A DNA stretch of 64,000 nucleotides, from contig NC_013741.1 of the NCBI RefSeq assembly GCF_000025285.1, positions 1,426,001 through 1,490,000 on the forward strand. Direction: 5' to 3'. The DNA is from Archaeoglobus profundus DSM 5631 (GTDB taxonomy: Archaea > Halobacteriota > Archaeoglobi > Archaeoglobales > Archaeoglobaceae). Under the pieces are notes generated by a model. It did no database searches, was not told where the DNA came from, and saw only the letters and a list, made by a program, of their open reading frames with translations. Both the position numbers and the translations under genes were made by a program. Shown one piece after another: positions 154-59,084 of the stretch (within the stretch, counting starts at the first letter, position 1; every line of letters begins with the position of its first letter).

Positions 154-2346
154 ATGAGGCTGAAATTATTTTCACTAATTATTTTTATTGTATTATTGTT
201 TGGGGTGGTAGGGGTAGCGAGTGCTGGAGTAATTACACCGCCGTTAGCGGATGATCCTTCTCTCGTTCTGAGATTGAGTTTTGACGACTACAAATTCTAC
301 CATTTTGGATTTGAGCAGACATTATATGACGACAACAACAGTGAAGATTTCAATTCGTACGGATCACTATCTTATTCAACAAATTGGAAAACGGATGGAG
401 AATACAGCTTGTATGGAGATATTAGTGGCGATGAGGCAGCCATATACGAGGCATTCGGTTACAGGATAGTAGTAACATATGATGTATTTGTTTCTGGTAA
501 GGTAAACAACGGAGAGTTAAGAGTGCTGGTAGGCGGTTCTGTCGTAAAGAGCTATACGGGAGGAAAATACCTAAACGAAAGTGTGACTGTTCCAGCTGGT
601 GAAGACATAAAGTTTCAATGGTATGCTCCCACTTCTAACGATCGCATACAAGCATACATAGATAACATCCGCATTCTCAAGGTTCAAGCCGACGATCAGA
701 GCGGGAACGGTAATAACGGTAATATCTACGGTGCAAACTGGACTGTCGGGCGTTACGGTTACGCTTTGAGCTTTGATGATGGAGAATATGTTGAAGTACC
801 TAACTCGTCAATTTGGTGGGATTGGAATGAAATAACAGTTTGTGCATGGGTCAAGTTTTTGGAGCCACGTAAAGAGAGTTGGGATAGACTTGTAGATTCA
901 AATAGATGGACTGGTAAAGGTGCGTGGTTACTTTTCGCAGATAAGTATAGCTCAAATACACTGTTGTGGGGTGTTACTGATAAAGACGATGCAGGCAATG
1001 TATACTTTTATCAAGTTGCTTATAAAAATATACAACCCAATGAATGGTATTTCGTAGTTGGAACTTACAACGGCTCTTATGTGAAACTGTATGTAAATGG
1101 AAAGCTTGTTTCGCAAAGAGATGCACCCACAATGAACATATCTGCCAATGGCGTAATTATAGGATTTAAAAACAGTCCAACTGATGATACCTTGAGAATT
1201 ATAGATGAAGTCCGCATATACAATCGTGCTCTCAGCGATGAGGAAATCAAGGCAATGTATGAAGCCCTTCGTGTCAAATTCTACGACGAGAGCACTGGTC
1301 AAAAGATAAAAGCCAACGCTACCATCTTCAACGCCAACCACAGCATTAACCTCCAAGTCGATTCAATTACGAAAGAGGCTGTCCTGTTCCATGCTGACGT
1401 GCCAGAATACGGCAAGTATCAAGTAAAAGTCGAAGCTGGAGGATATTCTCCAAGATATTACGGTGTAAATCTAACAGATGATAAAAGAATAGAATTAGAC
1501 ACTTATTTACCTCCAAGTGACAAATCTGTGCTGATAATCTTCCAACTCGAAGATAACGCCAATTTCTATAACAACAACACGATGCTAATCCTCAAAAAAG
1601 CCTTTACAGATGGATCCAAGACTGTCTATCAGAACTACTTCGACATCGAGAAGAAATGCAGTGTTTATTTGATCGCTGACGACATTTACCACGTTTACGT
1701 TGATAACGGAATCGAAACGAAATATCTTGGAATTTACTCGAGCTCAATATCAACAACCGCAACACTCAAAATCGGCGAAGAGATCAGTCAAATTATTCAA
1801 AAAGGCGTTACACTACCCCTGCACACTGTAACCCTAATCGTTATAAAAGCCCTAAAACCCTACGCTCACGTTCCAATAGCTATTAGAGACACAGTTCACG
1901 GCAACAGCTATGTAGTCTACACGGATGACGAAGGAAAAGCAGTCATTTGGGTCAATAGCACCATCCCCTACGAAATCGACGTTAACAACAGCGAGAAAGT
2001 ACTTACAACATTCCTACCTCTCAAAGAGAAGTATATCGTAGTCGTTCCTTATAATGTAACTCCACTGAATCAAACCTACAACGTCTTGTACAATGTAACA
2101 AATGGTAGCGTTCTTCAAATTGGCAAAAACATAAGCTCTCAGCTGTCTCCATCCGCGAGAGGTATTCTGACGGCTATAATCCTGTGGGCTGTGATGCAGA
2201 GTACTGTAAGAGTTGTCGGGAACGTCAGCGTGGTAGGCTTGGCAGTTTTGGTCATATTAACAATCATTGGCTTAGCAGATCCGATGTCCTGTGTGTTCGC
2301 CGGGACGTTCGTTGTTGGAATGTATGTGTTGAAGAGGTGGTTGTGA
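154..2346 (+). CDS. LamG-domain surface protein with signal peptide and C-terminal membrane segments
   Basis: This 730-residue protein has an N-terminal signal peptide (FSLIIFIVLLFGVVGVASA). A beta-rich region follows, then a laminin-G/concanavalin-like module at about residues 180-370; the ending ...IDEVRIYNRALSDEEI is the usual LamG_3 signature. Next come carboxypeptidase-regulatory-like repeats (about 375-640) and two hydrophobic helices near the C-terminus. It should be exported and held in the membrane by its tail, exposing a carbohydrate- or protein-binding module. It is translationally coupled to two small membrane proteins downstream (TGATG overlap). What is seen fits an element-encoded surface or particle protein, but the ligand and role are unknown. 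Confidence 0.75.
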   Translation: MRLKLFSLIIFIVLLFGVVGVASAGVITPPLADDPSLVLRLSFDDYKFYHFGFEQTLYDDNNSEDFNSYGSLSYSTNWKTDGEYSLYGDISGDEAAIYEAFGYRIVVTYDVFVSGKVNNGELRVLVGGSVVKSYTGGKYLNESVTVPAGEDIKFQWYAPTSNDRIQAYIDNIRILKVQADDQSGNGNNGNIYGANWTVGRYGYALSFDDGEYVEVPNSSIWWDWNEITVCAWVKFLEPRKESWDRLVDSNRWTGKGAWLLFADKYSSNTLLWGVTDKDDAGNVYFYQVAYKNIQPNEWYFVVGTYNGSYVKLYVNGKLVSQRDAPTMNISANGVIIGFKNSPTDDTLRIIDEVRIYNRALSDEEIKAMYEALRVKFYDESTGQKIKANATIFNANHSINLQVDSITKEAVLFHADVPEYGKYQVKVEAGGYSPRYYGVNLTDDKRIELDTYLPPSDKSVLIIFQLEDNANFYNNNTMLILKKAFTDGSKTVYQNYFDIEKKCSVYLIADDIYHVYVDNGIETKYLGIYSSSISTTATLKIGEEISQIIQKGVTLPLHTVTLIVIKALKPYAHVPIAIRDTVHGNSYVVYTDDEGKAVIWVNSTIPYEIDVNNSEKVLTTFLPLKEKYIVVVPYNVTPLNQTYNVLYNVTNGSVLQIGKNISSQLSPSARGILTAIILWAVMQSTVRVVGNVSVVGLAVLVILTIIGLADPMSCVFAGTFVVGMYVLKRWL

Positions 2347-3442: not shown

Positions 3443-4342
3443 ATGAGAGTAGCCGTTAGTATGATGGTGCTCGCACTGCTATTTATGCTATTTGGCAGTA
3501 CAATCGTTCAAGCGAACAATCTCGAAATCAGCTACACCATACACGAAAATCACAACGCATGCGGTGGCAAATCAAAATATTTGGTTGAAATCAGAGTATA
3601 TAACCCAACAGATGAGTATATTACGGGCTTGATACATACTTACGTTTTCAAAGATAAAGAAATTTACACCCATTGCGAGCCAAAAGATTTGGTTAACGGT
3701 TTTTACGTCAAACCGCACGAGACGAGTGTCTATCGATATTATTACACCGACCTACCAAAGTCCGGAAGCTTGTTCGTATCTCTATCGATTGGAAGTAAGA
3801 AGGAAAAATATGTATTGCCATTTAGCCTGCCGTTAACTCCAGCAACTACACTTACAACTGTCACAACTGCTACGACTCTCCAACTGCAGAATGTTGAAAG
3901 AAGCACGAATATCTTTCAGAAGGTCAGTCAAGAACTCAACTACTACCTTCTGACAGTCTACAACTCTTTAGGATTGAGGAAATACATACAGTACGACCAT
4001 TTTCTGTACGCTTTAACTACTGTGCTGGTCCTTGCTGTCGGAAGCGTAGTTGTTGCTTATCAGAAGAGGAAGAAAGCTTACAGGTTCTACATTGATAGAT
4101 ACGAGGAAGCGTTCAGCGAGTACTCTCGACCTTACAAAATATCCTCCCTGAAACTATTTGCCAAGTGTGAGAAGTGCGAAAAGTGGGTGTACCTCCCATT
4201 CAGGTGCAACTACTGTGGCAACTACTTCTGCGGAGATCATATACTGCCTCCTAACCACAACTGCCCTAACATCGACGAGTGGAGGAGGAAGAGGCCTCCC
4301 GAAGGAGGCATATACCGGTACAGGTTCAAGAAAGGTTTGTAG
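3443..4342 (+). CDS. Membrane protein with exported domain and C-terminal AN1-type zinc finger
   Basis: This 299-residue protein has a signal peptide (VAVSMMVLALLFMLFGSTIVQA), an extracytoplasmic domain of about 110 residues with four cysteines, and a Thr-rich linker. A single membrane helix at about residues 189-205 follows, and then a cytoplasmic AN1-type zinc finger near the C-terminus. The finger is visible as CEKCEKW...CNYCGNYFCGDH...NHNC, the usual spacing of Cys and His ligands. The tail PPEGGIYRYR recurs in the AN1 protein at 9590-10645. It is convergent with a second AN1 protein, stop codon to stop codon. AN1 fingers bind proteins, often ubiquitin-related partners in eukaryotes; the partner here is unknown. 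Confidence 0.75.
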   Translation: MRVAVSMMVLALLFMLFGSTIVQANNLEISYTIHENHNACGGKSKYLVEIRVYNPTDEYITGLIHTYVFKDKEIYTHCEPKDLVNGFYVKPHETSVYRYYYTDLPKSGSLFVSLSIGSKKEKYVLPFSLPLTPATTLTTVTTATTLQLQNVERSTNIFQKVSQELNYYLLTVYNSLGLRKYIQYDHFLYALTTVLVLAVGSVVVAYQKRKKAYRFYIDRYEEAFSEYSRPYKISSLKLFAKCEKCEKWVYLPFRCNYCGNYFCGDHILPPNHNCPNIDEWRRKRPPEGGIYRYRFKKGL

Positions 4343-5770
4343 CTACCGCTTAGCAAGCATCAGTTTGATTACCAAATATTCGTCTTCAATGTATGCCTTA
4401 ATCCAGAATCTGTTGCACTTCAAAACATCCTCCATAATCTTTTCGTTCTTCTTAATTCTGTTCAATACGTAGTTTACAAAGCATTTTTGGAACTTTGGAT
4501 GATAAAATGACTCATGATAGCGTAATGTCCAAATTTTGCCATAACTGTAGCCACTTGGTAGATAATCTCTTTCGTCAAGATCGTATAAGGAGTAATCCCT
4601 CTTCAGGCGAAATCTTTCTTCAAACTCATTTATCAGATCCAACTGTAGCGCCCTCAGGTCAGATTGTTTAATTTTATAGGCATATTTCTTGAAATCATCA
4701 CTCGTAAGCTCCTCTACCTTTCTAACACTGGCAAATTCTTCTCCTTTGTACACCGCATAAACTGTGGCATTCTTAATTCGTTTACCTTCTTCTTCAAACC
4801 AATGATAGTAGTAATCGCTTAAATCCCAGACAGGAAGGTGCTGATCTAGCATGAAATACTGCCCATCTACTTTTATTGCCGTTGCGACATGCCCATCTTC
4901 GTAATTCTCGTAATTTATGTAGAAAATGTATACTGGTGAATAATCCATTGCTAGGAGAAGGGCAGCTGTCAGAATGGCATAATCACTACAGACTCCTTTT
5001 CCCTTCTTAACGGTTTCATACGGCGTTTGGTAGTAGTAGATCTCCGTACCTCCCACTACCTCCACATCCGTAATAACACCAGTATAAGGATCTTTTTCGT
5101 AGTATATTAAGGGAGCAGGCAGACTAGCTTTAGAGTAATCGTATTCAATATTTTCATCTTCCCACTCGAGAATATTCCAAGCACTTTCACAAATATCCTC
5201 ACCTTTGAGTTCATTGGCTAAATCTTGTATTTTTGAAAGTTCTGAGGAGGATAAAGCAACTTCAAGCGCATATTTTAGTTCGTATCGCCAGAGTTTTTCT
5301 CTCAGGTCTACCGGAGTTGGTGTCGGTGTTGGTGTGGGTGTTGGTTCTGGCAGTGTGGCAGGTGTTGAAGTAATTATAGGAGTTAGTTTTAGAATCTCAA
5401 TCGGTGGCGGTTGAGAAGGAATACTTGCAGGTGATTCTGACACATTCAGAAAGTTAGTTGCAAAAGCAAATGCTACTATTAAGAATATGATTGCTCCTAT
5501 CCATGCTTTGATGTTTCTTCTCTTCTTTCTCGGTGAAGATGAATAAGTGTGAGTAGTGACAGGAGGAGTAACGTGTGGGTAAGGTTTGAAAAGTACTCCC
5601 TCGCTATGCGATCTACGACTTAATGAGGGTGGTTCCCTCATCCTCCACAGGTCGATATTGATACAGTTATGATTGGGAGGTAAGCGGTGATCCTCGCAAA
5701 AGAGTCCACCACAATATCTGCATTTGTAAGGATACGCTACCTCCTTACCGCAGAAATCACATTTAGCCAT
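4343..5770 (-). CDS. AN1 zinc finger - membrane helix - transglutaminase-like cysteine protease protein
   Basis: The chosen start is ATG 5770, preceded by GGGTGGT; a TTG five codons earlier is less likely. Domain order: AN1 finger (residues about 3-45, CDFCGKE...CRYCGG..C.DH...NHNC), a basic segment, one membrane helix (about 86-108), a Pro/Thr linker, then a transglutaminase-like domain. The catalytic triad of that fold is visible as Cys in GKGVCSDYAILT, His in DGHVATAIKV and Asp in YFMLDQHL. With the finger inside, the enzyme domain faces outside the cell. The fold covers peptidases as well as cross-linking enzymes, so a protease role is plausible but not proven. A T-C-G-T-G motif shared with other genes here lies about 70 bases upstream. 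Confidence 0.8.
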   Translation of the reverse strand: MAKCDFCGKEVAYPYKCRYCGGLFCEDHRLPPNHNCINIDLWRMREPPSLSRRSHSEGVLFKPYPHVTPPVTTHTYSSSPRKKRRNIKAWIGAIIFLIVAFAFATNFLNVSESPASIPSQPPPIEILKLTPIITSTPATLPEPTPTPTPTPTPVDLREKLWRYELKYALEVALSSSELSKIQDLANELKGEDICESAWNILEWEDENIEYDYSKASLPAPLIYYEKDPYTGVITDVEVVGGTEIYYYQTPYETVKKGKGVCSDYAILTAALLLAMDYSPVYIFYINYENYEDGHVATAIKVDGQYFMLDQHLPVWDLSDYYYHWFEEEGKRIKNATVYAVYKGEEFASVRKVEELTSDDFKKYAYKIKQSDLRALQLDLINEFEERFRLKRDYSLYDLDERDYLPSGYSYGKIWTLRYHESFYHPKFQKCFVNYVLNRIKKNEKIMEDVLKCNRFWIKAYIEDEYLVIKLMLAKR

Positions 5771-5837
5771 TGCTACCACCCACAAGAGGTCATTATCCCC
5801 AAACCCAACCTGCTATGCTAAAACTTAACCATTTCGA

Positions 5838-5850
5838 TTTTTCGTGTTGA
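5838..5850 (-). repeat. Copy 1 of a TTTTTCGTGTTGA intergenic motif
   Basis: The sequence TTTTTCGTGTTGA lies upstream of the minus-strand gene starting at 5770. Other copies are at 6929-6942 (upstream of the Ntn hydrolase) and 10667-10680 (downstream of the M50-like gene). Read on the minus strand it is CAACACGAAAAA followed by AT-rich DNA, so it may be a shared upstream promoter element for the two minus-strand genes. Confidence 0.5.
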
Positions 5851-5900
5851 AGGTTGCAATAAATTATGGCAAAAAGCAGAGAAATTTAAAAAGCATTAAA

Positions 5901-6059
5901 TTATTTTTCTATAGCACGTAAATATTTTATGCTGTACGTAGGCTCTTGGAAATAATACTGTTGCCACTCCTTTGCAACAAATCCTCTTCCGTCCTTCCTT
6001 TCTCTGAGCTCCTTAAGCTTCTCAATTAACTTATCTCTATCGACAACAAGAGTTGTCAT
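5901..6059 (-). CDS. Small protein, 52 residues, downstream of the Ntn hydrolase
   Basis: The ATG at 6059 is six bases past the Ntn-hydrolase stop and follows GAGGTGAG. The product begins MTTLVVDRDKLIEKLKEL and ends SIKYLRAIEK. It is charged and probably mostly helical. Close spacing and a strong ribosome-binding site support a real gene co-transcribed with the hydrolase. No family is recognised; a regulator or cofactor of the hydrolase is only a guess from position. Confidence 0.5.
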   Translation of the reverse strand: MTTLVVDRDKLIEKLKELRERKDGRGFVAKEWQQYYFQEPTYSIKYLRAIEK

Positions 6060-6065
6060 TTTTAC

Positions 6066-6884
6066 TCACCTCTCGGGATTTAGTTCTCTGCTATAATAAT
6101 GTTTTCTTTTCACCCATTTAAATCCTTCGTGTTTCGTAATCGCCGCAATCTCTATTGGCCCTCCTATAGTTGGTGCACCAGGTCTAAATCTTGCAAATTT
6201 AATCGCTGTATCCACCAAGAAGTCTGCAAGATCTATGGCATCTTGAATTGGCATAGCAGGGTGAACTAATGTTATTTCCAACCTCTCACTCAAGTACCGA
6301 GATAGATCCTGTAACATATCTTCTTGAATCCCTAACTCACTTAAAACATCGAGCAACATTGGTGAGTAGCCTTTAACGATTCGGCTGATAACCTCGTATT
6401 CTCCATCCCAAGCGAGGGGAGAATCTACTTCACTTTTCTTAAAATCTCCAAACCCTATGTCTAATCTGTAAACCTCTGGATGAGTACCATTCGCAGAATA
6501 ACCAGCAATGTAGAAACCTATGTACGGCTTATCCTCATCGTCCAAATCGTTGTAGGCCTCTAAGTAGTTCTCAACATACATAAACTGCAAGAATTTGTCA
6601 ACAACTTCTTCGATCGTGTAGTTTTCTTTGTCTATCTGGTAATCCGGATCAGAGCTTGCCAACTTCTTCCTGAAATCCTTAACCAATGTTGAAATTGATA
6701 AATCACCAATGTTTCCACTACCCCAAGTTACAGCACCAATTGGAAGACCTTTATAGAGGTTGAAAATCTTGTTTGCATAGTTGTATACATTCCAAACCTC
6801 ACCACTGGCGTTTAATATAGTCCCAGCACTATCAGATGCCAGAACTACACCATCATACACTTTAACGCAAATGGCAATCGTCAT
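6066..6884 (-). CDS. Proteasome-like Ntn hydrolase
   Basis: The product is 272 residues from ATG 6884. Removing Met exposes an N-terminal Thr (TIAICVKVYDGVVLASDS). Numbered from that Thr, Asp falls at position 17 and a Lys (ANKIFNL) near 38, matching the Thr1/Asp17/Lys33 arrangement of proteasome beta subunits and HslV apart from a short insertion. A glycine-rich strand (GAVTWGSGNIGD) follows where expected. It is about 60 residues longer than a typical beta subunit and ends in a basic tail. It is distinct from housekeeping proteasome genes and sits in the accessory element between two AN1 membrane proteins. Assembly state and substrates are unknown. The copy of the CGTGTTGA motif and a hairpin lie in its upstream region. 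Confidence 0.75.
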   Translation of the reverse strand: MTIAICVKVYDGVVLASDSAGTILNASGEVWNVYNYANKIFNLYKGLPIGAVTWGSGNIGDLSISTLVKDFRKKLASSDPDYQIDKENYTIEEVVDKFLQFMYVENYLEAYNDLDDEDKPYIGFYIAGYSANGTHPEVYRLDIGFGDFKKSEVDSPLAWDGEYEVISRIVKGYSPMLLDVLSELGIQEDMLQDLSRYLSERLEITLVHPAMPIQDAIDLADFLVDTAIKFARFRPGAPTIGGPIEIAAITKHEGFKWVKRKHYYSRELNPER

Positions 6885-6928
6885 CCTAAGACCACCGCAC
6901 ACCACTTAGTTCAAGAACTTTTTAACTC

Positions 6929-6960
6929 TTTTTTCGTGTTGAGGAGTTAGGTTTGCCTAA
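6929..6960. repeat. Copy 2 of the TTTTTTCGTGTTGA motif with adjoining hairpin
   Basis: TTTTTTCGTGTTGA (6929-6942) is followed after four bases by TTAGG-TTTG-CCTAA (6947-6960), a perfect 5-bp inverted repeat. The same arrangement recurs at 10667-10699 with TTTAGG-ATTG-CCTAAA. It lies between the Ntn-hydrolase start and the MazF stop. It could be a terminator for one strand or a shared regulatory element. Confidence 0.5.
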
Positions 6961-6975
6961 GGCTGACGGCAACGG

Positions 6976-7335
6976 TTAACCAAGATTGAATATTGCTTTA
7001 ATTATGCTCTTAACCTCGCTTAATTTCCTATCCTTTACTCTTCCGACCTTTTTGAGAACTAAGTTCTTCTCAACTGTGAAGATAGAATGACAGTGAATGT
7101 AGCTGATCTTTTTGAGTTTGCCTTCTTCTAAGTCTTCAGGCTTTAGCTCTACCTCAAAGTCTTCCAATTGCTTAGAAGAGCTTATTTTAGCCACTATTAA
7201 ATCTCTTGAGATTTTGTTTAATTTTTCGGAACTTAAAACTAATACGGGTCTCAATTTCTTACCGATTAAATCGGTAAATGGTAGTTCCAAGACTACTACG
7301 TCCCCCTCTCTAAAATTCGAAGAGGTTTTCTGCAT
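6976..7335 (-). CDS. MazF/PemK-family endoribonuclease toxin
   Basis: This 119-residue protein has the MazF/PemK layout: an N-terminal REGDVVVLELPFTD segment with the conserved G-D, then KKLRPVLVLSS with the conserved R-P-x-L-V-L strand, and a DLIVAKISS segment. Such toxins are sequence-specific endoribonucleases. It overlaps the upstream AF2212-like antitoxin gene by 26 bases and starts at ATG 7335 behind GGGAGGGAGAAG. The pair forms a type II toxin-antitoxin module of the accessory element. Confidence 0.85.
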   Translation of the reverse strand: MQKTSSNFREGDVVVLELPFTDLIGKKLRPVLVLSSEKLNKISRDLIVAKISSSKQLEDFEVELKPEDLEEGKLKKISYIHCHSIFTVEKNLVLKKVGRVKDRKLSEVKSIIKAIFNLG

Positions 7336-7495
7336 CTTCTCCCTCCCTTAGAAGTCTAAGATATGAATACAGCTTTAAATCGTCAATAACTTCTACTTCC
7401 TCAATGCTTAAAATTACTTTAGACCTTTCTGGAATATTCAACTTTTCTAATGGAATGAGAACTCCCTTCTCGTAAATGCATTCAATCTTCTTCAT
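7310..7495 (-). CDS. AF2212-like (DUF104) antitoxin
   Basis: This 61-residue protein begins MKKIECIYEKGVLIPLEKL, the usual DUF104/AF2212 pattern (short strand, E-x-G-V-x-x-P-L). It continues with IPERSKVILSIEE. Members of this family are found in archaea next to PIN- or MazF-type toxins and act as antitoxins. The toxin gene follows with overlapping ends. Upstream lies part of a dispersed palindromic repeat (7536-7573), a likely operator or RNA hairpin near its promoter. Confidence 0.8.
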   Translation of the reverse strand: MKKIECIYEKGVLIPLEKLNIPERSKVILSIEEVEVIDDLKLYSYLRLLREGEDAENLFEF

Positions 7496-7535
7496 ATCTC
7501 TTGTTTCGCATCCACCATATTTTAACCTTCACAAG

Positions 7536-7573
7536 GTTAAAGAAGTTGCTAAAGACTGCTTTAACAACCATTT
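7536..7573. repeat. Dispersed repeat, left-part copy (palindromic core)
   Basis: GTTAAAGAAGTTGCTAAAGA and the following CTGCTTTAACAACC match the left part of the fuller copy at 9301. The core is an imperfect inverted repeat of form GTTnnAAG-AnTG-CTTnAAC. It lies just upstream of the antitoxin/MazF operon. Confidence 0.5.
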
Positions 7574-7577
7574 TAGG

Positions 7578-8264
7578 TTATAAATTGGGATATAACTCAG
7601 CTAAGTGTTTAATATCAAAATTGGGGTTTATCGAAGTACTGCAATATTCATCGACAAATTTAAATATTTTATGCTTATTATTTATAATATCTTTTTCATC
7701 TAAAGTTACAAAAACTATATTGCCTCGATAATGAGATATTATTATGCAATCTACGAGAATTTGCCCATCATTAACATTATTGATAATGTTTCCAAGAAGT
7801 TGTCCCCAACTTATTCTTTCATGAGGATATGGATGAATTTCATCAACATCTATTATCTCCTTAATCTTGTTTAGGGCATTTTTAACCCTTAAATCAAATA
7901 TCTTACTGATGTATCTTAGACTTGTTATCAAATGAATTTTATCATGCTTTGTTGATATTCGTATCGTGCTGAGTGACTTCAATATTTGTATTAAATGATC
8001 TCTTAGTTTGCTATCATCAATTTCCATGATAATTTGATCTATGTCCAAGTTGCTCTCTAAATACCTACAAACCTTTTCATAAAGTTTTAAACGCTTATAT
8101 CTAATACGATCAAGCTCTTTTTTCACACTCTTAGAACATATTCTTTCGTGATTCTCGCTGAAAAACTTTTCACAATGTGAACCATATCTCTCCACATCAG
8201 CTATTATCTTAATATATGCGGCATATCCTACAATCACACAAGTATCAACAAAATATTCTACCAA
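7578..8264 (-). CDS. PIN-domain-like nuclease
   Basis: The chosen start is TTG 8264, because GGAGGTG sits six bases upstream and the longer frame would intrude into the previous gene. The 228-residue product begins MVEYFVDTCVIVGYAAYI, with the Asp that opens PIN domains. It has a charged helical middle and a late segment ILVDCIIISHYRGNIVFVTLDEKDI containing the second and third acidic positions expected for PIN ribonucleases. It directly follows the 318-residue gene upstream (13 bases). PIN nucleases often act as toxins, so the upstream gene could be its control partner, but no known antitoxin family is seen there. Confidence 0.65.
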   Translation of the reverse strand: MVEYFVDTCVIVGYAAYIKIIADVERYGSHCEKFFSENHERICSKSVKKELDRIRYKRLKLYEKVCRYLESNLDIDQIIMEIDDSKLRDHLIQILKSLSTIRISTKHDKIHLITSLRYISKIFDLRVKNALNKIKEIIDVDEIHPYPHERISWGQLLGNIINNVNDGQILVDCIIISHYRGNIVFVTLDEKDIINNKHKIFKFVDEYCSTSINPNFDIKHLAELYPNL

Positions 8265-8277
8265 TTTTTCACCTCCT

Positions 8278-9234
8278 TTAAATATCTCGTAAAGCTTTGA
8301 GGAACTCTTTCGCTGGAAGGCTTGATTCAATCCTTTCAAGTAGAAAATCTTCAGATGGGTTTAATTCCAACTCGTCAATTCTTTTTTCGTAAATTTTTAG
8401 ATAAACTTTAACATTATTTAATGTTATGTTAAAATTTCTTTGCAAGTTTTGGAGAACGTTTCTACTGTTTTGTCCTTTAATAGTTCTTTTAGCTATCTCC
8501 GTTGCTGGTAGCTTCCAGACTTCGTTATCATAATAAACGTAAGCTTCCTTACAAAATTCTATCAACTTTTCAGTTACTTCATTATTTCGTGCTTTTTCCT
8601 CTATTCCAAGCGCAATAGTCTCGAGTAATGTCGTGTATTCTATAAAGACATTCACTATTCTATGATCTTCAATTGTTTTAGAGATTGCCATATGTAGCTC
8701 TGATAGTGACTCAGAAACTATTGTCGAATCCACATCTACGAAATATAATCGCTTATTAGGGTACAATTGTTCTATAAACGACTCAAAACTCTTTTTAAAC
8801 TTTAAATTTGTTATATACAAGTCTCTAAACTCGGAAGGGGCAAATCTCCTATATATTTCCTCAAGAAAATGATAGCCTTCACTCTTCAGCCTAAAGACAC
8901 CTAATTCTTCAATAACAGATTTTATAGTATTTACTATAGTTTTTGCAATATCTTTTGGAATAGATGATATAATAGTATTTATTGAATTTATATCTTTACC
9001 GCTTAGGAAAGCTTCAATCGGATCATTACACCAAATATAACATCCTCTCATGTACCACGATCTCGTTATATTATCCAGATTGAGTCGCTCAGCAACATTA
9101 TAAACGATTTTATGAACCTTAGTCTCATTGATATATTTTTTGTCAATTCTTTTTATTCTTAATACTTGATTTAAGCCTGATAAAATCAATTTAACAAGAA
9201 CATCCTCATCATAATTATTTAGTAAGCTGGTCAT
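8278..9234 (-). CDS. Uncharacterised 318-residue protein paired with a PIN-like gene
   Basis: The start is ATG 9234 behind a weak GGATGGG. The protein is AT-rich in coding, mostly helical and charged, with no signal peptide or membrane helix. A central beta/alpha stretch (KRLYFVDVDSTIVSESLSE) has a DxDST sequence resembling the first motif of HAD phosphatases, but further HAD motifs are not clear. It is co-transcribed with the PIN-like protein downstream. A fuller copy of the dispersed repeat lies upstream of its promoter. No family is recognised. Confidence 0.5.
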   Translation of the reverse strand: MTSLLNNYDEDVLVKLILSGLNQVLRIKRIDKKYINETKVHKIVYNVAERLNLDNITRSWYMRGCYIWCNDPIEAFLSGKDINSINTIISSIPKDIAKTIVNTIKSVIEELGVFRLKSEGYHFLEEIYRRFAPSEFRDLYITNLKFKKSFESFIEQLYPNKRLYFVDVDSTIVSESLSELHMAISKTIEDHRIVNVFIEYTTLLETIALGIEEKARNNEVTEKLIEFCKEAYVYYDNEVWKLPATEIAKRTIKGQNSRNVLQNLQRNFNITLNNVKVYLKIYEKRIDELELNPSEDFLLERIESSLPAKEFLKALRDI

Positions 9235-9300
9235 AGCCCATCCCTTGCATGGGGTTTTCTATTTAAGTCTTCTGATTTTGAACAACTTCTAACTTTCGAT

Positions 9301-9412
9301 TTTCGTTATTAATTAGTCGTTAAAGAAGTTGTTAAAGATTGCTTCAACGACCCTTGTCACCCAACTTGGTTAGTCGATTGTAGATGAAAAGATGTTGTTA
9401 GTTCGTTAGTTG
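9301..9412. repeat. Dispersed intergenic repeat, copy R1 (about 110 bp)
   Basis: This starts TTTCGTTATTAA, contains GTTAAAGATTGCTTCAAC (a near-palindrome), then CCCAACTTGG, TTAGTCGATTGTAGATGAAA and AGATGTTGTTAGTT. The same order of blocks is found at 12421-12523. Partial copies are at 7536, 10719, 10857 (inverted) and 12629. It lies upstream of the minus-strand gene at 9234. Confidence 0.7.
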
Positions 9413-9417
9413 TTTAA

Positions 9418-9445
9418 CAATTGTTATAATATGTTATAACAATTG
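9418..9445. repeat. Perfect 12-bp inverted repeat
   Basis: CAATTGTTATAA and TTATAACAATTG are exact reverse complements separated by TATG. The site lies in the 355-base gap between divergently transcribed genes (9234 minus, 9590 plus), next to repeat R1. It is a likely protein-binding site controlling one or both promoters. Apart from this and R1 the gap holds only AT-rich promoter-like DNA. Confidence 0.7.
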
Positions 9446-9589
9446 CTATAATAAAAGACTGGAAAGCAATAATAGTTCATGCTCTTGAAGAAGCCTTATA
9501 TTGCTTCTTTATTATTTTTTCGACATCAATAGTAGATTACTGTGATATAAAATGAAATATTTTAAATTTGTAATGAACAATGCTATGCT

Positions 9590-10645
9590 ATGTTCTTAAT
9601 TCCCGGATGGGTCATAGCTGTTTTGACCTTTCCCGGTGTAATTATACACGAATTTGCACATAAAATAGCTTGCGATTTGATAGGTGTCCATGTCTACAGA
9701 GTTTGCTACTTTAGAATAGGCAACCCGGCAGGTTATGTAGAACATGCCCCTCCAAAGACATACAAACAAGCGTTCGTAATATCTACAGCACCATTCATAG
9801 TAAACTCAGCGATAGCTGTAGCCATCTTCGCTATAGCCGTAAAAACTCCATCCACTATTAAAATTTTTGGCATTGAATTTAAATACATCCTATATTGGCT
9901 TGGGATATCGATAGCAATGCATGCTTTTCCAAGCAGTCATGATGCCAAGAATGTATGGGATTTCACATGGAAAGTTTGGAGACGAAATCCTCTGGTCATT
10001 CTCGGAATTCCAGTTGTAGTCTTGATTTACATAGCGAATGCTTTGAGTTACTTCTGGTTTGATGCAATCTATGCTTTAATCCTGCTTACATTAACGGTTA
10101 GTATCGTAAAAGCTCCCACAACCGATGCAGTCACGAGCTTTGCTAAAGATATCTCTGAAGGTGTCATCAGCCTCGCTAAGGATGTTACAAAAGGGCTTGA
10201 AACATCTCTTGGAATATCAAATGTTGAGATAAGCTCAGACTTTCTATACCACAACATCCCCTTAGCAACATTCGTAGTTGTAATAGCGATCATCTGCTTA
10301 TTCGCTATCAAAAGTAAAAGAAGAGGGATTCCAACAAGAAAGAGATACAGAATTAAGGAAATCTCCGAAGTAGGCGAATACTATCCACCTCCACCAGATG
10401 TTACAACCAATACCACAACATATTATTCGAACGAAACAACAGAAACCAAAGAACACGAATCGCTCTACGCTAAATGTGCCTTCTGCGGTAAAACAGTCTA
10501 TCTGCCGTATAAGTGCAACTATTGTGGGCAATACTACTGCGATGACCATCGTTTACCTTTCAACCACAATTGTCCGGGAATAGACTCCTACAAAGACTCT
10601 CCACCGCCTAAAGGGGGGATATGGAAATACAGAAGAAGAGATTGA
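9590..10645 (+). CDS. M50-like membrane metalloprotease with C-terminal AN1-type zinc finger
   Basis: This 351-residue protein carries HEFAH at residues 21-25, inside a hydrophobic helix (VLTFPGVIIHEFAHKIACDL). That is the zinc-binding HExxH of site-2-protease-like enzymes. Several more membrane helices follow (about 60-250), with NPAGYVEH near the region where the fold places its core loops. The cytoplasmic C-terminus has an AN1 finger (CAFCGKT...CNYCGQYYCDDH...NHNC) and the tail PPKGGIWKYR. The tail matches the AN1 protein at 3443-4342 (PPEGGIYRYR). A second conserved motif with the third metal ligand is not obvious, so M50 assignment rests mainly on HExxH and topology. A T-rich stretch and hairpin follow the stop. 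Confidence 0.7.
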   Translation: MFLIPGWVIAVLTFPGVIIHEFAHKIACDLIGVHVYRVCYFRIGNPAGYVEHAPPKTYKQAFVISTAPFIVNSAIAVAIFAIAVKTPSTIKIFGIEFKYILYWLGISIAMHAFPSSHDAKNVWDFTWKVWRRNPLVILGIPVVVLIYIANALSYFWFDAIYALILLTLTVSIVKAPTTDAVTSFAKDISEGVISLAKDVTKGLETSLGISNVEISSDFLYHNIPLATFVVVIAIICLFAIKSKRRGIPTRKRYRIKEISEVGEYYPPPPDVTTNTTTYYSNETTETKEHESLYAKCAFCGKTVYLPYKCNYCGQYYCDDHRLPFNHNCPGIDSYKDSPPPKGGIWKYRRRD

Positions 10646-13772: not shown

Positions 13773-14385
13773 AAAAACAATAAGTATAGGTTTTTCAGTA
13801 CATATAGAAGATGATAAAGACATTCTTGAAATTCTTGAAGCTCATAAAGACAATAAGAGTGAGTTTATCCGCAATGCAATTCGTTATTACGCTGGTCTCC
13901 TTTCAAAAGAAGACTCTAACAAAGTGGATAAATCACTTCTAAGAGTTATTCAATTAGAAAAGAAGCTTGCAGAGTTGGAAAAGAAGGAAGAGGAGAGGTA
14001 TCAGAGGATTCTTGAATTAATTCAAAAGGAGTTTGAAGAATCAAGGAAGGAGAGGGAAGAACTGAGGAAAGAGCTTGAGCTAATCAAGAAGGCACAAGAG
14101 AGCCTAAGAGCGAAGGAAGAGGAGGAGAAGAGGAAGGTAGACCTTGCAAAGAGGAAGAAGGAGGTTTTGAGGGATTTAAGGATACAGAAGTTGAATCCGG
14201 TGTTATTGGAATTCAAACGGAAGCCGACACCGCTGATATACGAGCAGGTTAAGAGTGTTATCAAGGAGGCAGTGGAGCAATATCCTGATCTTTTGACTGA
14301 AGAGGAGTTATGGGAGTACGCTATCGAAGTTGCGCCGAGGATTCGCCATTATAAGGAGATTGAGATGAGGAGGAGGTACGTATGA
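13765..14385 (+). CDS. Ribbon-helix-helix protein with long coiled coil
   Basis: ATG 13765 follows GGAGGTG and overlaps the AbrB stop; upstream in-frame codons are ignored. Of about 206 residues, the first 50 (TISIGFSVHIEDDK...NKSEFIRNAIRYYAGLL) form a CopG-like ribbon-helix-helix. Residues about 60-150 are an almost continuous charged coiled coil. The C-terminal 50 residues are a helical domain. It overlaps the MCM start as ATGA. Position and architecture suggest a partition- or replication-associated DNA-binding protein of the element. Confidence 0.65.
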   Translation: MAKKTISIGFSVHIEDDKDILEILEAHKDNKSEFIRNAIRYYAGLLSKEDSNKVDKSLLRVIQLEKKLAELEKKEEERYQRILELIQKEFEESRKEREELRKELELIKKAQESLRAKEEEEKRKVDLAKRKKEVLRDLRIQKLNPVLLEFKRKPTPLIYEQVKSVIKEAVEQYPDLLTEEELWEYAIEVAPRIRHYKEIEMRRRYV

Positions 14386-16349
14386 TAAGCAGTGAAGACC
14401 CTCTTGTCGATTTTGTATATTACATTGATGCTAAGCTTAAGAATGCTGTAGTTGGCGAGAACATCGTTATAGACTTCGAAAAAGACGGACTTACCACTTT
14501 CCTCATCTCAAGAGGATTCTGGGACAAGTTCAAGGAGAATCCAGTTGAACTCCTCAGGAGGCTGGAATCTCACATCCTTGAGAGACTCAAGATGTACGAT
14601 GTCAAGGAGGTCAAAGTAAAGTACACGAATTGGCCAAAGTTCCTCAAAAAGGAGATCACGGAGGTAAGAAGGGTTAACAATATTGGCAAACTGGTCGTTT
14701 TTGAGGGTGTCGTAAGGAAGATCACGTCTGCTTTTTCGAGGATTAGGAACATTCAGTACCATTGTACGGAGTGTGGTAGTCCTGTAGAGGTTGAACCTGT
14801 GGATGGCAGAATTCCTAAGGTTGCCTGTCCTAAGTGCGGTTCTAAGAAGTTTGAGCTTATTGCTGAGGAAAAGAAAGACTGTCAGGTTATAGAGGTTCAG
14901 GAATACCCGGAGGGGCTGAGGAGACAGCCAGAATCGATCAAGGTCTACCTCTATGATGACTTAGTTGGCTTAGTTTACCCGGGAGACAAGGTAGTGGTAG
15001 CGGGAATACTCAAGGAGGTAAGACCACCGAACAAGTCATACGGAGACTTTGTAGTTGAAGCGATAAGCATCGAGTTTGTCGAAGACGACTTGAGGAACAT
15101 CAACCTGACCTCTGAGGATGTTCAAAAGATCAAGGAACTTGCCAAGGATCCGCAAATCTACGAGAAGCTTGCAAAGAGTTTAGCACCAACGGTAAAAGGA
15201 CACGATGCGATCAAGCAGGCTATAGTCTTGCAACTCTTCGGTGGTGTGACGAAGGTTTATCCAAATGGCACGAAGAGGAGGGGCAACATCCACATTCTCC
15301 TCGTTGGAGATCCGTCCACAGCGAAGTCACAGCTTGCCGAGAGCGTTGCGAAGGTTGCTCCTCGTTCAGTTTTCGTGGATGGAACATTGATGACAAAGGT
15401 AGGGCTAACGGTAACGACTTCGAGAGACGAAGTGACGGGAAGGTGGACGATAGAGGCTGGTGCTCTCGTTTTGGCTGATAACGGTATTGCGATCATTGAT
15501 GAAATCGAGAAGGCTAAGAAAGACGATTTAGAAGGCTTGGAGAGACCGCTTGAGCAACAGGTCGTGAACGTCTCCAAAGCTGGCATAAATGCGACACTGA
15601 ATGCGAGGACATCCGTTTTAGCATGTGCAAACCCCAAGAGAGGCAGATTTGACAGACATGAACCGATAGTCGAACAGATTAAGCTTAGTCCTCCTCTACT
15701 TTCGAGATTTGATCTGATATTTGTTCTCTTGGACGAGCCGGATGAGGTTAGAGATGCTGAGATTGCTGATTTCATTTTAAGCGGAGGTTATGAAGAGCCA
15801 CCGATTGACCCGGAACTCTTCAAGAAATACATTCTCTACGCAAGAAACAACATCACAAACGTTGAACTGAGTGAAGGAGCGAAGAGGAAGCTCAAGGAGT
15901 TCTATACTGAGATGAGGATAAAGAGCAAGGAGACGGGTTCCATTGCCATTACAACGAGGCAGTTGGAGGCTTTGAAGAGGCTCACGGAAGCTTCTGCCAA
16001 GGTTAGGCTCAGCAACGTTGCAACGGAGGAGGATGCGGAGAGGGCGATAAGGATCTTCGAGGAGAGCATAAAGCAGGTTGCGATAGATCCTGAAACGGGC
16101 AACATCGACATCGATTACGCTATAAGCGGTGTTTCTGCCAAGCAGAGGGATGATATCAGAACGATTCTCGACATAATTGAGGAGTTCGAGGAGCAGACTC
16201 CTTGGGGTGCGAGCGAGGAGACGATTCTTGCAAAGGCTGAGGAGAAGGGAATTCCGCAGGGTAAGGCGTTGGAACTCCTTGATAAGCTGAAGAAGGAGGG
16301 GGACATCTTCTCTCCAAGATTTGGGTATTTTAAGAGGTATGGGAGGTGA
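14382..16349 (+). CDS. mcm: MCM-family replicative helicase encoded by the element
   Basis: This 655-residue protein has the full archaeal MCM layout: an N-terminal domain with a zinc-binding C-x2-C...C-x2-C (CTECGS, CPKCGS; about residues 127-165), then an AAA+ domain. The AAA+ domain has Walker A GDPSTAKSQ (about 307-315), Walker B with IIDEIEKAKKDD, sensor 1 ACANPKRGRF and the arginine-finger segment LLSRFDLIF. A C-terminal winged helix ends the protein. Walker B reads DEIEK where chromosomal MCMs have DEFDK, and the hairpin region after GTLMTKVGL also diverges, consistent with a mobile-element copy. It should unwind the element's DNA at replication. Translation is coupled to the RHH coiled-coil gene. 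Confidence 0.92.
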   Translation: MISSEDPLVDFVYYIDAKLKNAVVGENIVIDFEKDGLTTFLISRGFWDKFKENPVELLRRLESHILERLKMYDVKEVKVKYTNWPKFLKKEITEVRRVNNIGKLVVFEGVVRKITSAFSRIRNIQYHCTECGSPVEVEPVDGRIPKVACPKCGSKKFELIAEEKKDCQVIEVQEYPEGLRRQPESIKVYLYDDLVGLVYPGDKVVVAGILKEVRPPNKSYGDFVVEAISIEFVEDDLRNINLTSEDVQKIKELAKDPQIYEKLAKSLAPTVKGHDAIKQAIVLQLFGGVTKVYPNGTKRRGNIHILLVGDPSTAKSQLAESVAKVAPRSVFVDGTLMTKVGLTVTTSRDEVTGRWTIEAGALVLADNGIAIIDEIEKAKKDDLEGLERPLEQQVVNVSKAGINATLNARTSVLACANPKRGRFDRHEPIVEQIKLSPPLLSRFDLIFVLLDEPDEVRDAEIADFILSGGYEEPPIDPELFKKYILYARNNITNVELSEGAKRKLKEFYTEMRIKSKETGSIAITTRQLEALKRLTEASAKVRLSNVATEEDAERAIRIFEESIKQVAIDPETGNIDIDYAISGVSAKQRDDIRTILDIIEEFEEQTPWGASEETILAKAEEKGIPQGKALELLDKLKKEGDIFSPRFGYFKRYGR

Positions 16350-19439: not shown

Positions 19440-19745
19440 ATGGTTGGGGGACGAAGTGGAGGGACAATTACGGAAGTTATACGTATGGTGGAAGGGTTAA
19501 GTCCCGACATGGCGAGAAAGGTGAAGACGTCTATTTCTATAAGACCTGAGTTAAAAAATCTTGCAGAGAAGTATGGTATTAATTTGAGTGCCTTGTTGGA
19601 GGATGCGTTGATTCAAAGGCTTAGGGATTTGGTTTTGATAGAACAGGGGAAGGGTAGTATGCTCCGGCCGGGATTTGAACCCGGGTCACGGGATCGAGAG
19701 TCCCGTATGATTGGCCGGGCTACACCACCGGAGCTTGACATATAG
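19440..19745 (+). CDS. Ribbon-helix-helix protein whose frame runs into antisense tRNA-Glu
   Basis: ATG 19440 follows GGTGATTGAG. Residues about 25-65 (KVKTSISIRPELKNLAEKYG, NLSALLEDALIQRL) are a CopG-like ribbon-helix-helix DNA-binding domain. From 19660 onwards the frame is the antisense of tRNA-Glu (LRPGFEPGSRDRES...), a tail created by the element-tRNA junction. In a free circular form the C-terminus would probably differ. Likely role: regulator next to the attachment site. Confidence 0.6.
   Translation: MVGGRSGGTITEVIRMVEGLSPDMARKVKTSISIRPELKNLAEKYGINLSALLEDALIQRLRDLVLIEQGKGSMLRPGFEPGSRDRESRMIGRATPPELDI
19660..19734 (-). tRNA. tRNA-Glu (anticodon CTC)
   Basis: On the minus strand GCTCCGG opens and CCGGAGC closes the acceptor stem. 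The anticodon arm CGGGA-CTCTCGA-TCCCG places CTC in the loop, and GGTTCAAATCC forms the T loop. A T-rich box A-like TTTTTTAAG lies about 30-40 bases upstream (19765 region). The discriminator is A, and no CCA is encoded. Block A abuts its 3' end, the classic integration position. Confidence 0.95.
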
Positions 19746-48747: not shown

Positions 48748-49449
48748 ATGATTAAGTCAAAAAAAGCTCTCAAGGACATAATCGTCGTTGGCAAACGAGT
48801 TGGAGATCAAGTTTATTACCGACTGGATCCTCCCTTCAAGGAAGAAGCACGTCCACTTGATTGCTATCCAAATTGTTTAACTGCATTAATATCAATCTAT
48901 GATGTGCTCTATGAATCCGGTTTAGGCGCATTCAGCACTTATAAAGAGTTTTACGAAGCAGCATGTGACTGGTTCAATAGAAAAATCAAGGAAGGTTACA
49001 CCGAGAAGTATGTAGACTACACAAATAGATTCCTCCGAATGAATGGTATAGATTTTAAAGCAAAAATAATTCTAGCAAGGAAATCCATGGCCGATGATCT
49101 TGATCTGTTACTCATAAAGAATGAGCTTCTGAATTTTAGCCAAAAAAAGTTAGTTCCTCCGATAGCAGTTATCGATGAGCATTACTTACGGCATGGACAA
49201 CCATTAGCAGGTGCTCATAGTCTGTTATTACTTGGATACACGATAGAGAACTTCTTCGTATATGATCCAGACTATGGAGTCCGAATTCGGGAAGTTTCAA
49301 TAGACGAAATCAAGAAAGGTTTAAGTGTATACGATTACAACCTTATAGTCCTCATACCTGTTGAAGAAAGTTTAAAGGTTGAAAGGGTTGCGCTGAGAGA
49401 TACAAGACTCACGGAATTTCCGGAGTTTGGGGATATTGGAGGGGAGTAA
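48748..49449 (+). CDS. Papain/C39-like cysteine peptidase (pair 1)
   Basis: The 233-residue product has an N-terminal region, then PLDCYPNCLTALISIYDV, where a Cys begins a helix as in papain/C39 folds. Later comes GAHSLLLLGYTIENFFVYDP with the catalytic His and Asp/Asn. The same order of motifs is in the protein at 54348-54968. It is cytoplasmic by prediction (no signal). Such folds in archaea include peptidases and inactive relatives; the triad looks intact. It overlaps nothing but is two bases before its partner. Confidence 0.6.
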   Translation: MIKSKKALKDIIVVGKRVGDQVYYRLDPPFKEEARPLDCYPNCLTALISIYDVLYESGLGAFSTYKEFYEAACDWFNRKIKEGYTEKYVDYTNRFLRMNGIDFKAKIILARKSMADDLDLLLIKNELLNFSQKKLVPPIAVIDEHYLRHGQPLAGAHSLLLLGYTIENFFVYDPDYGVRIREVSIDEIKKGLSVYDYNLIVLIPVEESLKVERVALRDTRLTEFPEFGDIGGE

Positions 49450-54347: not shown

Positions 54348-54968
54348 GTGATAGGGGTGGAGCTGAGCTCCATACCTGTACCAAAACTGGCTCAAGTGGA
54401 GATTGGTGGGGTAGTTGTTGATGTTTTGAATGTTCCCTTTATCCAACAGCCACCCCAAATGTTATGCTTTCCTTACTCTGTTAGCATGGTCATTGAATTT
54501 TTTAGACAGACAGAAACTGGTGTGAATATCCCAAGTTTAACATTGGGTGATTTAATAAGAGCTTTAAATACGGATCCCGAAAGAGGTACTGTACTTTCAA
54601 AAACGACAATAAAAAAGCTTAACGAGGTCACGTATCCCATAGAATTTGCGATATATCATGGCAATTTAGGGAAATTAGACGAATGCTTTGAGAAAAGAAT
54701 ACCACCTATTTTAATCTTTAATTCGATGTACTACATATACTCTATGGAAGGTCCTGCACATGCTACAGTATATGTCGGCAGAACTGAAACAAAAATTATA
54801 ACTAATAACCCCTGGATGGGCAAAAGTTACCCGTACGATTTGGAGAGATTTTTAGAAGCATGGGAGGTTGAAGGAAATAAGATGGTAATCGCCCGATTAA
54901 GAAAGGAAAAAAGGATTGAAGACGCAAGATTAAATAAGTATGTAGACTTATTTGGAGGAGAGGAGTAG
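54348..54968 (+). CDS. Papain/C39-like cysteine peptidase (pair 2)
   Basis: From GTG 54348 the 206-residue product has VPFIQQPPQMLCFPYSVSMV, with Cys at a helix start, and GPAHATVYVGRTETKIITNN with catalytic His and a following Asn/Asp-like residue. The order matches pair 1. It stops two bases before the partner. An intracellular peptidase or peptide-modifying enzyme is inferred from fold; no target is known. Confidence 0.6.
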   Translation: MIGVELSSIPVPKLAQVEIGGVVVDVLNVPFIQQPPQMLCFPYSVSMVIEFFRQTETGVNIPSLTLGDLIRALNTDPERGTVLSKTTIKKLNEVTYPIEFAIYHGNLGKLDECFEKRIPPILIFNSMYYIYSMEGPAHATVYVGRTETKIITNNPWMGKSYPYDLERFLEAWEVEGNKMVIARLRKEKRIEDARLNKYVDLFGGEE

Positions 54969-58186: not shown

Positions 58187-58660
58187 CTATCTGGAGATAA
58201 CTAAATAAAATAAATAATATAAAAGACGCAGTAAAGGAATGGAGAATATAATTGCAAAGATAATTGTTATCCCTTGCTCTATTTTACTTAATAATACATA
58301 TCTGCTTTTCTCTAATACCTCCCACTCTTTGTAATAACAAGGGTACGGCAAATACTTCTCAATTTCGTGAATGACAGTAAATTTCGCTGAGTTCAATTTT
58401 CTATAAGATTCTATATGTACATACCATAGAATGCATACAATTATGCCTAACCCAGATATCGAAAGAATTATAACAGAATTAAATGATCCAACCTCCCTTA
58501 ACACAGAAGTCACCGCAATTAGTGCAGACACTAAAGATATGTAGAACATGTTCGTATGCATCCTCCTATTACTAACTCTGTCTGCCATTTCGACGAATAG
58601 TTTATATTGTTCTAAAAGATGCTCTTTAAACTTTTCACCGTAATTTTCTTCGTCTATCAT
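58187..58660 (-). CDS. Membrane protein paired with TIR gene (putative effector)
   Basis: The 157-residue protein has an N-terminal cytoplasmic helix (LLEQYKLFVEMADRVSNRRM) and about three hydrophobic segments (FYISLVSALIAVTSVL, IILSISGLGIIVCILWYV, IIFAIIFSIPLLRLLYYL). The EQYKLxVEMADRxSxRR start is a recurrent feature of small membrane proteins encoded beside TIR-domain genes in prokaryotes. It starts one base after the TIR gene stops. A membrane-disrupting effector triggered by a TIR-made signal is a hypothesis. Confidence 0.6.
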   Translation of the reverse strand: MIDEENYGEKFKEHLLEQYKLFVEMADRVSNRRMHTNMFYISLVSALIAVTSVLREVGSFNSVIILSISGLGIIVCILWYVHIESYRKLNSAKFTVIHEIEKYLPYPCYYKEWEVLEKSRYVLLSKIEQGITIIFAIIFSIPLLRLLYYLFYLVISR

Positions 58661-58661
58661 A

Positions 58662-59084
58662 CTAAAGTGAGTGTCTCCTTATAGCACTTATTATCGAGTC
58701 CGTTCTCCAACCTACTATCTCTCTTGCAACTTCTTGAATCATTCTGGGTACTCTCTCACTACCTAACGGTTTCACTCCAATAATTGGCTTGCCAAAACTA
58801 AGTGCAATATCTATTTCTTTCTGAATCCAGTAACTATATGCAACATACAAACCAGACAGAACAATAACACAATGTACAGGGCGAATTTGATTCATAAGTT
58901 CTCTAGTTAATGTTCTTCTACCAACTTCACTATCAGGATCGACTGCAGGGTCATGTTGTGGACAACTATAATTCCTCCACCAAAAGTACGGAGCGTTATT
59001 CAATAAGTTCACTAGACGGTTGTACTCACCACTATATCTCCATGAGTGACTTATGAAAAGATTATAAATTCTTAATTTTGGCAT
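58662..59084 (-). CDS. TIR-like (MTH538/ThsB-type) domain protein
   Basis: The 140-residue protein has NLFISHSWRYSGEYNRLVNL (box 1: strand then S-H-S-W), VIVLSGLYVAYSYWIQKEI with W-x2-x-E-I, where the Glu is in the position of TIR catalytic Glu, and FGKPIIGVKPLG. This is the DUF1863/MTH538 group that includes ThsB of Thoeris defence, where it makes a cyclic ADP-ribose signal on infection. The next gene is a membrane protein in tight coupling. No SIR2-SLOG ThsA is seen. Confidence 0.75.
   Translation of the reverse strand: MPKLRIYNLFISHSWRYSGEYNRLVNLLNNAPYFWWRNYSCPQHDPAVDPDSEVGRRTLTRELMNQIRPVHCVIVLSGLYVAYSYWIQKEIDIALSFGKPIIGVKPLGSERVPRMIQEVAREIVGWRTDSIISAIRRHSL

Follow-up and report, generated by a model that had tools for sequence, protein, structure and literature searches.

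Three membrane proteins with AN1 zinc fingers on modular anchors in an integrated element of Archaeoglobus profundus

In eukaryotes, the AN1 zinc finger of ZFAND5 binds the ATPase Rpt5, and two further AN1 proteins, Cuz1 and AIRAPL, make contacts with the proteasome and p97/Cdc48 (PMC11799193, PMC5035049). The finger is also widespread in the archaeal phylum studied here, being present in 245 of the 394 genomes sampled. Its common form in these archaea is the AN1-rhomboid, of which most Archaeoglobaceae genomes encode one; a search of the open literature found no paper on AN1 function in archaea. Here, we analyzed a 64,000-nucleotide stretch of Archaeoglobus profundus DSM 5631 (contig NC_013741.1, positions 1,426,001 to 1,490,000; hereafter the window), in which three membrane proteins, termed A, B and C, carry AN1 fingers within an element integrated at a tRNA-Glu gene (Table 1). 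Comparison with their homologues indicates that the finger and its transmembrane (TM) anchor form a cassette that has been joined to different bodies.

All three fingers exceed the gathering cut-off of zf-AN1 (PF01428), scoring 40.9–44.1 bits against 27.9, and present the C6H2 ligands in order. A six-frame search of the genome (1,560,622 bp and one further, small contig) recovered exactly three AN1 fingers, those of A, B and C, and the chance of three randomly placed genes falling within 7.2 kb is estimated at about 6e-5. Outside the eight zinc ligands, identity is 12/25 between A and B, 14/25 between A and C and 15/25 between B and C; with agreement at about half to 60% of the non-ligand positions, the objection that the fingers are not alignable beyond the ligands fails. 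An AN1-only tree, which has too few columns, groups B weakly with a protein of genome G007 (92/57). Hydropathy and charge balance (finger side +5/+6/+8) predict that the finger lies on the cytoplasmic side of the TM segment in A, B and C. A sequence-only reading of this DNA had described three membrane proteins within 7 kb that share one AN1-type finger, two of them with a PPxGGIxxYR tail, attached to an exported domain, a transglutaminase/peptidase-like domain and an M50-like HExxH protease, and that description is borne out, the tail being found in A and C.

The bodies to which the fingers are joined differ. The AlphaFold model of A is beta-rich and of low confidence (pLDDT 59, 3 sequences), and the matches of a fold search with it, none better than E 3e-3, are weak and of a generic beta-sandwich kind, so that the ectodomain is given no function. 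B, whose open reading frame (ORF) opens at TTG 5785 and whose start is probably ATG 5770, matches DUF553 (PF04473) with an E value of 4.9e-49 and falls just under the cut-off of Transglut_core (22.0 versus 23). Its putative catalytic residues, as read from the sequence, follow one another in the order Cys (GVCSDY), His (GHVATA) and Asp (LDQHLP). The same catalytic domain is found in archaeal DUF553 proteins, which are widespread in Archaeoglobaceae, whereas the close relatives examined have no AN1 finger and carry a signal or anchor sequence in its place. Elsewhere in the genome (L123 9431-9658, genome 854,439-854,651), what is left of a second DUF553 gene is 86% identical to the C-terminal 71 residues of B.

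Protein C contains the motif HEFAH, of which H20, E21 and H24 are invariant in four aligned homologues together with the downstream D118, the putative distal metal ligand. The sole PDB match of its family profile is 3B4R (E 0.0059), the M50/site-2 protease MJ0392, with which C has in common an HExxH motif in the first TM segment and a multi-TM body. Unlike MJ0392, C bears an additional TM-AN1 tail and lies below the Pfam M50 cut-off (21.2 versus 27.2 bits; an AN1-less homologue reaches 26.1 bits), and it is therefore named M50-like only.

The last ~147 residues of C align with the last ~121 of A at 36% identity (E 5e-25) across the juxtamembrane region, TM segment, linker, finger and tail, the latter reading PPEGGIYRYR in A and PPKGGIWKYR in C. 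The first 200 residues of C, in turn, are 64% identical to a 206-aa AN1-less protein in a sister element of genome G035. As the body occurs there without AN1 and the tail is of A type, C is a chimera, a metalloprotease body to which an A-type anchor has been added. A parallel pattern is seen for B, whose first ~140 residues, comprising finger, linker and TM segment, match proteins of G033 (E 4e-23), G007 (E 8e-30) and G025 at 33–44% identity over about 140–176 aa; finger and linker also match proteins of G024 and G003 over ~80 aa. The ectodomains on this B-type anchor are a transglutaminase-like domain different from that of B in G033, a domain with a C-H-D motif and no Pfam support in G007, and a CAP domain (PF00188, E 1.6e-5) in G025. 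At the level of sequence homology, these comparisons show a modular build of the membrane proteins A, B and C, in which the finger travels with its TM anchor as a cassette. AN1-anchored proteins also occur in company outside the host, as G007 encodes two of them side by side, about 22 bp apart, and G033 encodes both an A homologue (38% over the full length) and an AN1-transglutaminase protein, separated by ~255 kb. A further arrangement of the finger was noted in G032 (L042 8926-9708), where the neighbor of a lipoprotein-like gene encodes a protein of 260 aa that has three AN1 fingers but no obvious TM segment.

Because the AN1 anchor has moved onto different enzymes, it has the look of an exchangeable cassette for docking on the cytoplasmic side. 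Our preferred interpretation, to which we assign a probability of roughly 45%, is that the cassette is such a docking tag and that the fingers of A, B and C bind one shared hub. The fingers would then gather their proteins at one place on the membrane, where A would retain or display a surface protein, which B would cut or crosslink on the outside, and C would cleave the remaining membrane stub. By analogy with ZFAND5 and Rpt5 and with Cuz1 and AIRAPL, the hub might, speculatively, be a hexameric proteasomal AAA ATPase, either PAN, which is encoded in the host genome, or Cdc48. It would draw in the cytoplasmic piece once this is released, giving the element control over host envelope proteins.

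Several observations weigh against a shared hub. In most relatives the AN1-rhomboid is the only AN1 protein, so that no gathering of several proteins is needed there. AN1 is absent from G001 and G002, two sampled genus relatives of the host, and the host rhomboid (L133 1462-2160, genome about 1,298,300) keeps the linker EEYIPVKVKRR and has no finger. The host genus thus appears, from these sequences, to have lost the finger of its AN1-rhomboid, and a hub would have to persist there without host AN1 proteins. The link between A and C is not resolved in the AN1-only tree and rests on the longer cassette alignment.

The remaining point comes from a metagenome-assembled genome, G143, which encodes a single AN1-less protein composed of an A-type ectodomain, a TM segment, an RRKK loop, a second TM segment and a transglutaminase-like domain. 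Its ectodomain is 28% identical to that of A (E 5e-9), and its transglutaminase part is 58.7% identical over 276 aa to that of the G033 AN1 protein (E 1e-107); a search of genome contigs with the A-family alignment recovered G143 again and nothing further. Such a fusion indicates that A-type and B-type bodies belong together, and since it keeps both together without AN1, it agrees with mutual pairing no less than with a hub, and better than with recruitment to the proteasome. The fingers may accordingly pair directly, in homo- or heterotypic fashion, with A and B as the two halves of one receptor-enzyme and C joined through A's tail, no host hub being involved. The C-terminal finger of A and the N-terminal finger of B would give the order ecto-TM-[AN1.AN1]-TM-transglutaminase, for which the G143 protein has ecto-TM-short loop-TM-transglutaminase, and A and B are convergent neighbors whose stop codons abut at 4342/4343. 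We nonetheless regard direct pairing as unlikely. The single AN1-rhomboid of most relatives has no AN1 partner in its genome, and we know of no AN1-AN1 dimer among eukaryotic members. The AN1 contacts described in PMC11799193 and PMC5035049 are with ATPases and proteasome subunits.

The genomic setting of the three proteins was established from an exact 43-bp repeat that joins the 3' end of the tRNA-Glu gene to a site inside an integrase gene. The 28.6-kb stretch between the two repeats is an integrated element targeting tRNA-Glu; it has the attributes of tRNA-targeted archaeal integrated elements, namely an archaeal integrase (PF16795, E 6.4e-32) and direct attachment repeats, one of them in a tRNA gene. 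About 11 core genes, from the integrase through a LamG protein, are collinear with an element in G029, and further related elements were found in G029, as a second element of that genome, and in G017 and G035. The LamG protein matches its G029 counterparts at 53–58% over the C-terminal half. No AN1 finger was seen in the sister-element loci of G029, G017 and G035, genomes in which AN1 occurs only as AN1-rhomboid, and searches of viral contigs with B, C, the LamG protein and the ATPase as queries returned no relatives.

The variable arm of the element begins at 3443 and contains, besides A, B and C, genes for an N-terminal nucleophile (Ntn) hydrolase, MazF, HicA, a winged-helix protein and MCM. 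Such a mixture raises the alternative that the three proteins have no common function, the finger serving as a stable cytoplasmic cap or a zinc or redox regulator and the genes lying together as locally recombining cargo, with C having taken its tail from the gene nearby. The arm, with MazF, HicA, Ntn hydrolase and orphan genes, has no shared theme, recombination can swap anchors without selection for a partner, and the four-gene set of A, B, C and the Ntn hydrolase recurs in no other genome sampled, only the G007 pair and the unlinked G033 pair having been seen. Cassette transfer, however, recurs in several genera with the finger kept beside the TM segment, and the G143 fusion ties the A-type to the transglutaminase-type body. 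We therefore consider an absence of common function rather improbable.

The sequence-only reading had further placed a Thr1/Asp17/Lys-type Ntn hydrolase between the AN1 genes and in one set with them. The hydrolase itself is real. Its probable start, ATG 6884, puts Thr directly after Met; Asp17 is invariant in ten close homologues, Thr1 is conserved in at least 90% and Lys38 is invariant over twelve, the lysine being at position 38 and not Lys33. The AlphaFold model (pLDDT 87) matches a 20S beta subunit (Foldseek E 3e-9) and Anbu (6.6e-8), and the protein combines an N-terminal Thr, Asp17 and a Lys with a predicted alpha-beta-beta-alpha fold, as in proteasome-type hydrolases. It scores below the proteasome subunit profile PF00227 (E 0.18, 11.8 versus 22.4 bits). 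An intact proteasome-like nucleophile arrangement and fold, together with its position between B and C on the strand of B, could suggest that it acts with the three AN1 proteins in one proteolysis or signalling set.

The distribution of its homologues argues strongly otherwise. The closest relatives lie on tailed-phage or prophage contigs (42–53% identity), several beside endolysin-like genes; the protein matches PHROG 5990 (E 1.6e-26), and distant relatives occur in 26 phage records, one of them annotated 'proteasome subunit beta'. Within the phylum, matches were found in 10 of 197 genomes, with no other Archaeoglobaceae among them. No AN1 was present near the hydrolase gene in the 14 Ntn loci examined, and the surroundings of the A-like, AN1-transglutaminase and AN1-CAP loci yielded no relative of the Ntn gene. 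On these neighborhoods the hydrolase was ruled out as a partner of the AN1 proteins; by its sequence relationships it is independent cargo, a widespread phage gene, and a functional set of all four proteins is highly improbable. Of the idea of a mobile proteolysis or signalling set, the mobile element (attachment repeats at tRNA-Glu and an integrase), the homologous fingers and the moved cassette thus stand, whereas membership of the hydrolase and recurrence of the set do not. As a separate observation, the hydrolases form a family of their own, which is marked by GGPIEIAAITKHEGFKW at the C terminus and is encoded in phages and prophages of bacteria.

The host contains a second integrated element at tRNA-Gly (L151-L152, genome 714-737 kb), whose MCM is 59% to that of the window and which has 10 genes in common with a Geoglobus element at 47–79%; no AN1 was found in it. 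PMC10919331 describes an integrated pleomorphic provirus (Thalassapleoviridae) of the same species with MCM and a LamG protein, and a figure legend in it lists transglutaminase and zinc-finger ORFs among Thalassapleoviridae viruses. The 28.6-kb element resembles this provirus in being integrated in the same host and in encoding MCM and a LamG protein. Identity of the two was considered and dropped, as the block of genes shared with Geoglobus lies in the tRNA-Gly element, which lacks AN1, and not in the AN1 element. The published provirus most likely corresponds to the tRNA-Gly element, and the AN1 element appears to be distinct from it.

Table 1 Features of the AN1 element (window coordinates unless a locus is named; aa, amino acids).
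Feature	Coordinates	Strand	Remarks
Protein A: signal peptide, exported beta-sandwich ectodomain (~aa 25-130), TM (aa 187-205), predicted cytoplasmic AN1, PPxGGIxxYR tail	3443-4342	+	
Juxtamembrane-TM-AN1-tail cassette of A	3962-4324	+	homologous to C-terminal part of C (36% identity, E 5e-25)
AN1 finger of A	4166-4273	+	PF01428 E 2.1e-11
Protein B: AN1 at the N terminus, TM (aa 95-113), transglutaminase-like DUF553 domain (aa 185-343) predicted to be extracytoplasmic	4343-5770	-	
AN1-linker-TM cassette of B	5354-5770	-	common to differently equipped proteins of relatives
AN1 finger of B	5657-5761	-	PF01428 E 2.2e-10
Protein C: multi-TM body (aa 1-200) resembling M50/S2P zinc proteases, joined to TM-AN1-tail cassette	9590-10645	+	
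TM-AN1-tail cassette of C	10202-10633	+	homologous to that of A
AN1 finger of C	10475-10582	+	PF01428 E 5.7e-11
Phage-type Ntn hydrolase (Thr1/Asp17/Lys38, proteasome-beta fold)	6066-6884	-	between B and C
PemK/MazF-type toxin	6976-7335	-	neighbor; PF02452 E 1.2e-18
Two overlapping ORFs without family assignment	7578-8339 (253 aa), 8278-9234 (318 aa)	-	neighbors
Secreted LamG-domain protein	154-2346	+	element core; PF13385 E 8.7e-23; kept in sister elements
Element-borne MCM helicase	14382-16349	+	PF00493 E 1.2e-87
Right attachment repeat, 43 bp	19660-19702	-	inside tRNA-Glu(CTC) gene 19660-19734
Left attachment repeat copy	L122 11067-11109		at integrase gene, 8.9 kb ahead of window

PADLOC defence models gave no match for the Ntn hydrolase, B, C or the two orphan ORFs (7578-9234). 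Elsewhere in the window, a ThsB-type TIR-like protein (PF08937, E 2.4e-15; PADLOC ThsB, 7e-14) adjoins an 8xMP octameric membrane protein (PF24838, E 3e-38) at 58187-59084 on the minus strand, a pair resembling a Thoeris-like defence unit. Two ORFs in a second AT-rich region (48748-49449 and 54348-54968) look by eye like C39-type peptidases and have no Pfam match.

Cassette swapping and the AN1-less fusion lead to a testable prediction, namely that the finger brings membrane enzymes together. If the partner were PAN or Cdc48, archaeal membrane proteases would be linked to the proteasome. Coupling of membrane proteolysis to the proteasome is known from eukaryotic endoplasmic reticulum-associated degradation (ERAD). 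By analogy, AN1 in archaea and their elements could be an interchangeable tag that docks membrane-embedded or outward-facing proteases onto PAN or Cdc48, an ERAD-like counterpart taken over by the element; we hold this extended proposal to be distinctly unlikely.

The search of the open literature brought up no account of AN1 fused to M50-like, DUF553, CAP and Ig-like bodies or of swapping of its anchor, but some AN1-membrane fusions may have been described earlier. The fingers of A, B and C share the C6H2 AN1 form with eukaryotic ZFAND, Cuz1 and AIRAPL proteins, which take part in degradation at the level of the proteasome and p97/Cdc48 (PMC11799193, PMC5035049), but those proteins are mostly soluble, have no protease domain in the chain and carry ubiquitin-binding partner domains that are absent from A, B and C. 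Archaeal AN1-rhomboids likewise place a finger of the Pfam AN1 family, alignable at 11–16 of 25 non-ligand positions, on a membrane protease-type protein. Their haloarchaeal relatives presumably include Haloferax RhoII. In the rhomboids, the finger is N-terminal and the gene stands alone, whereas here it is joined to Ig-like, DUF553 and M50-like bodies, is C-terminal in A and C, and is borne on an integrated element.

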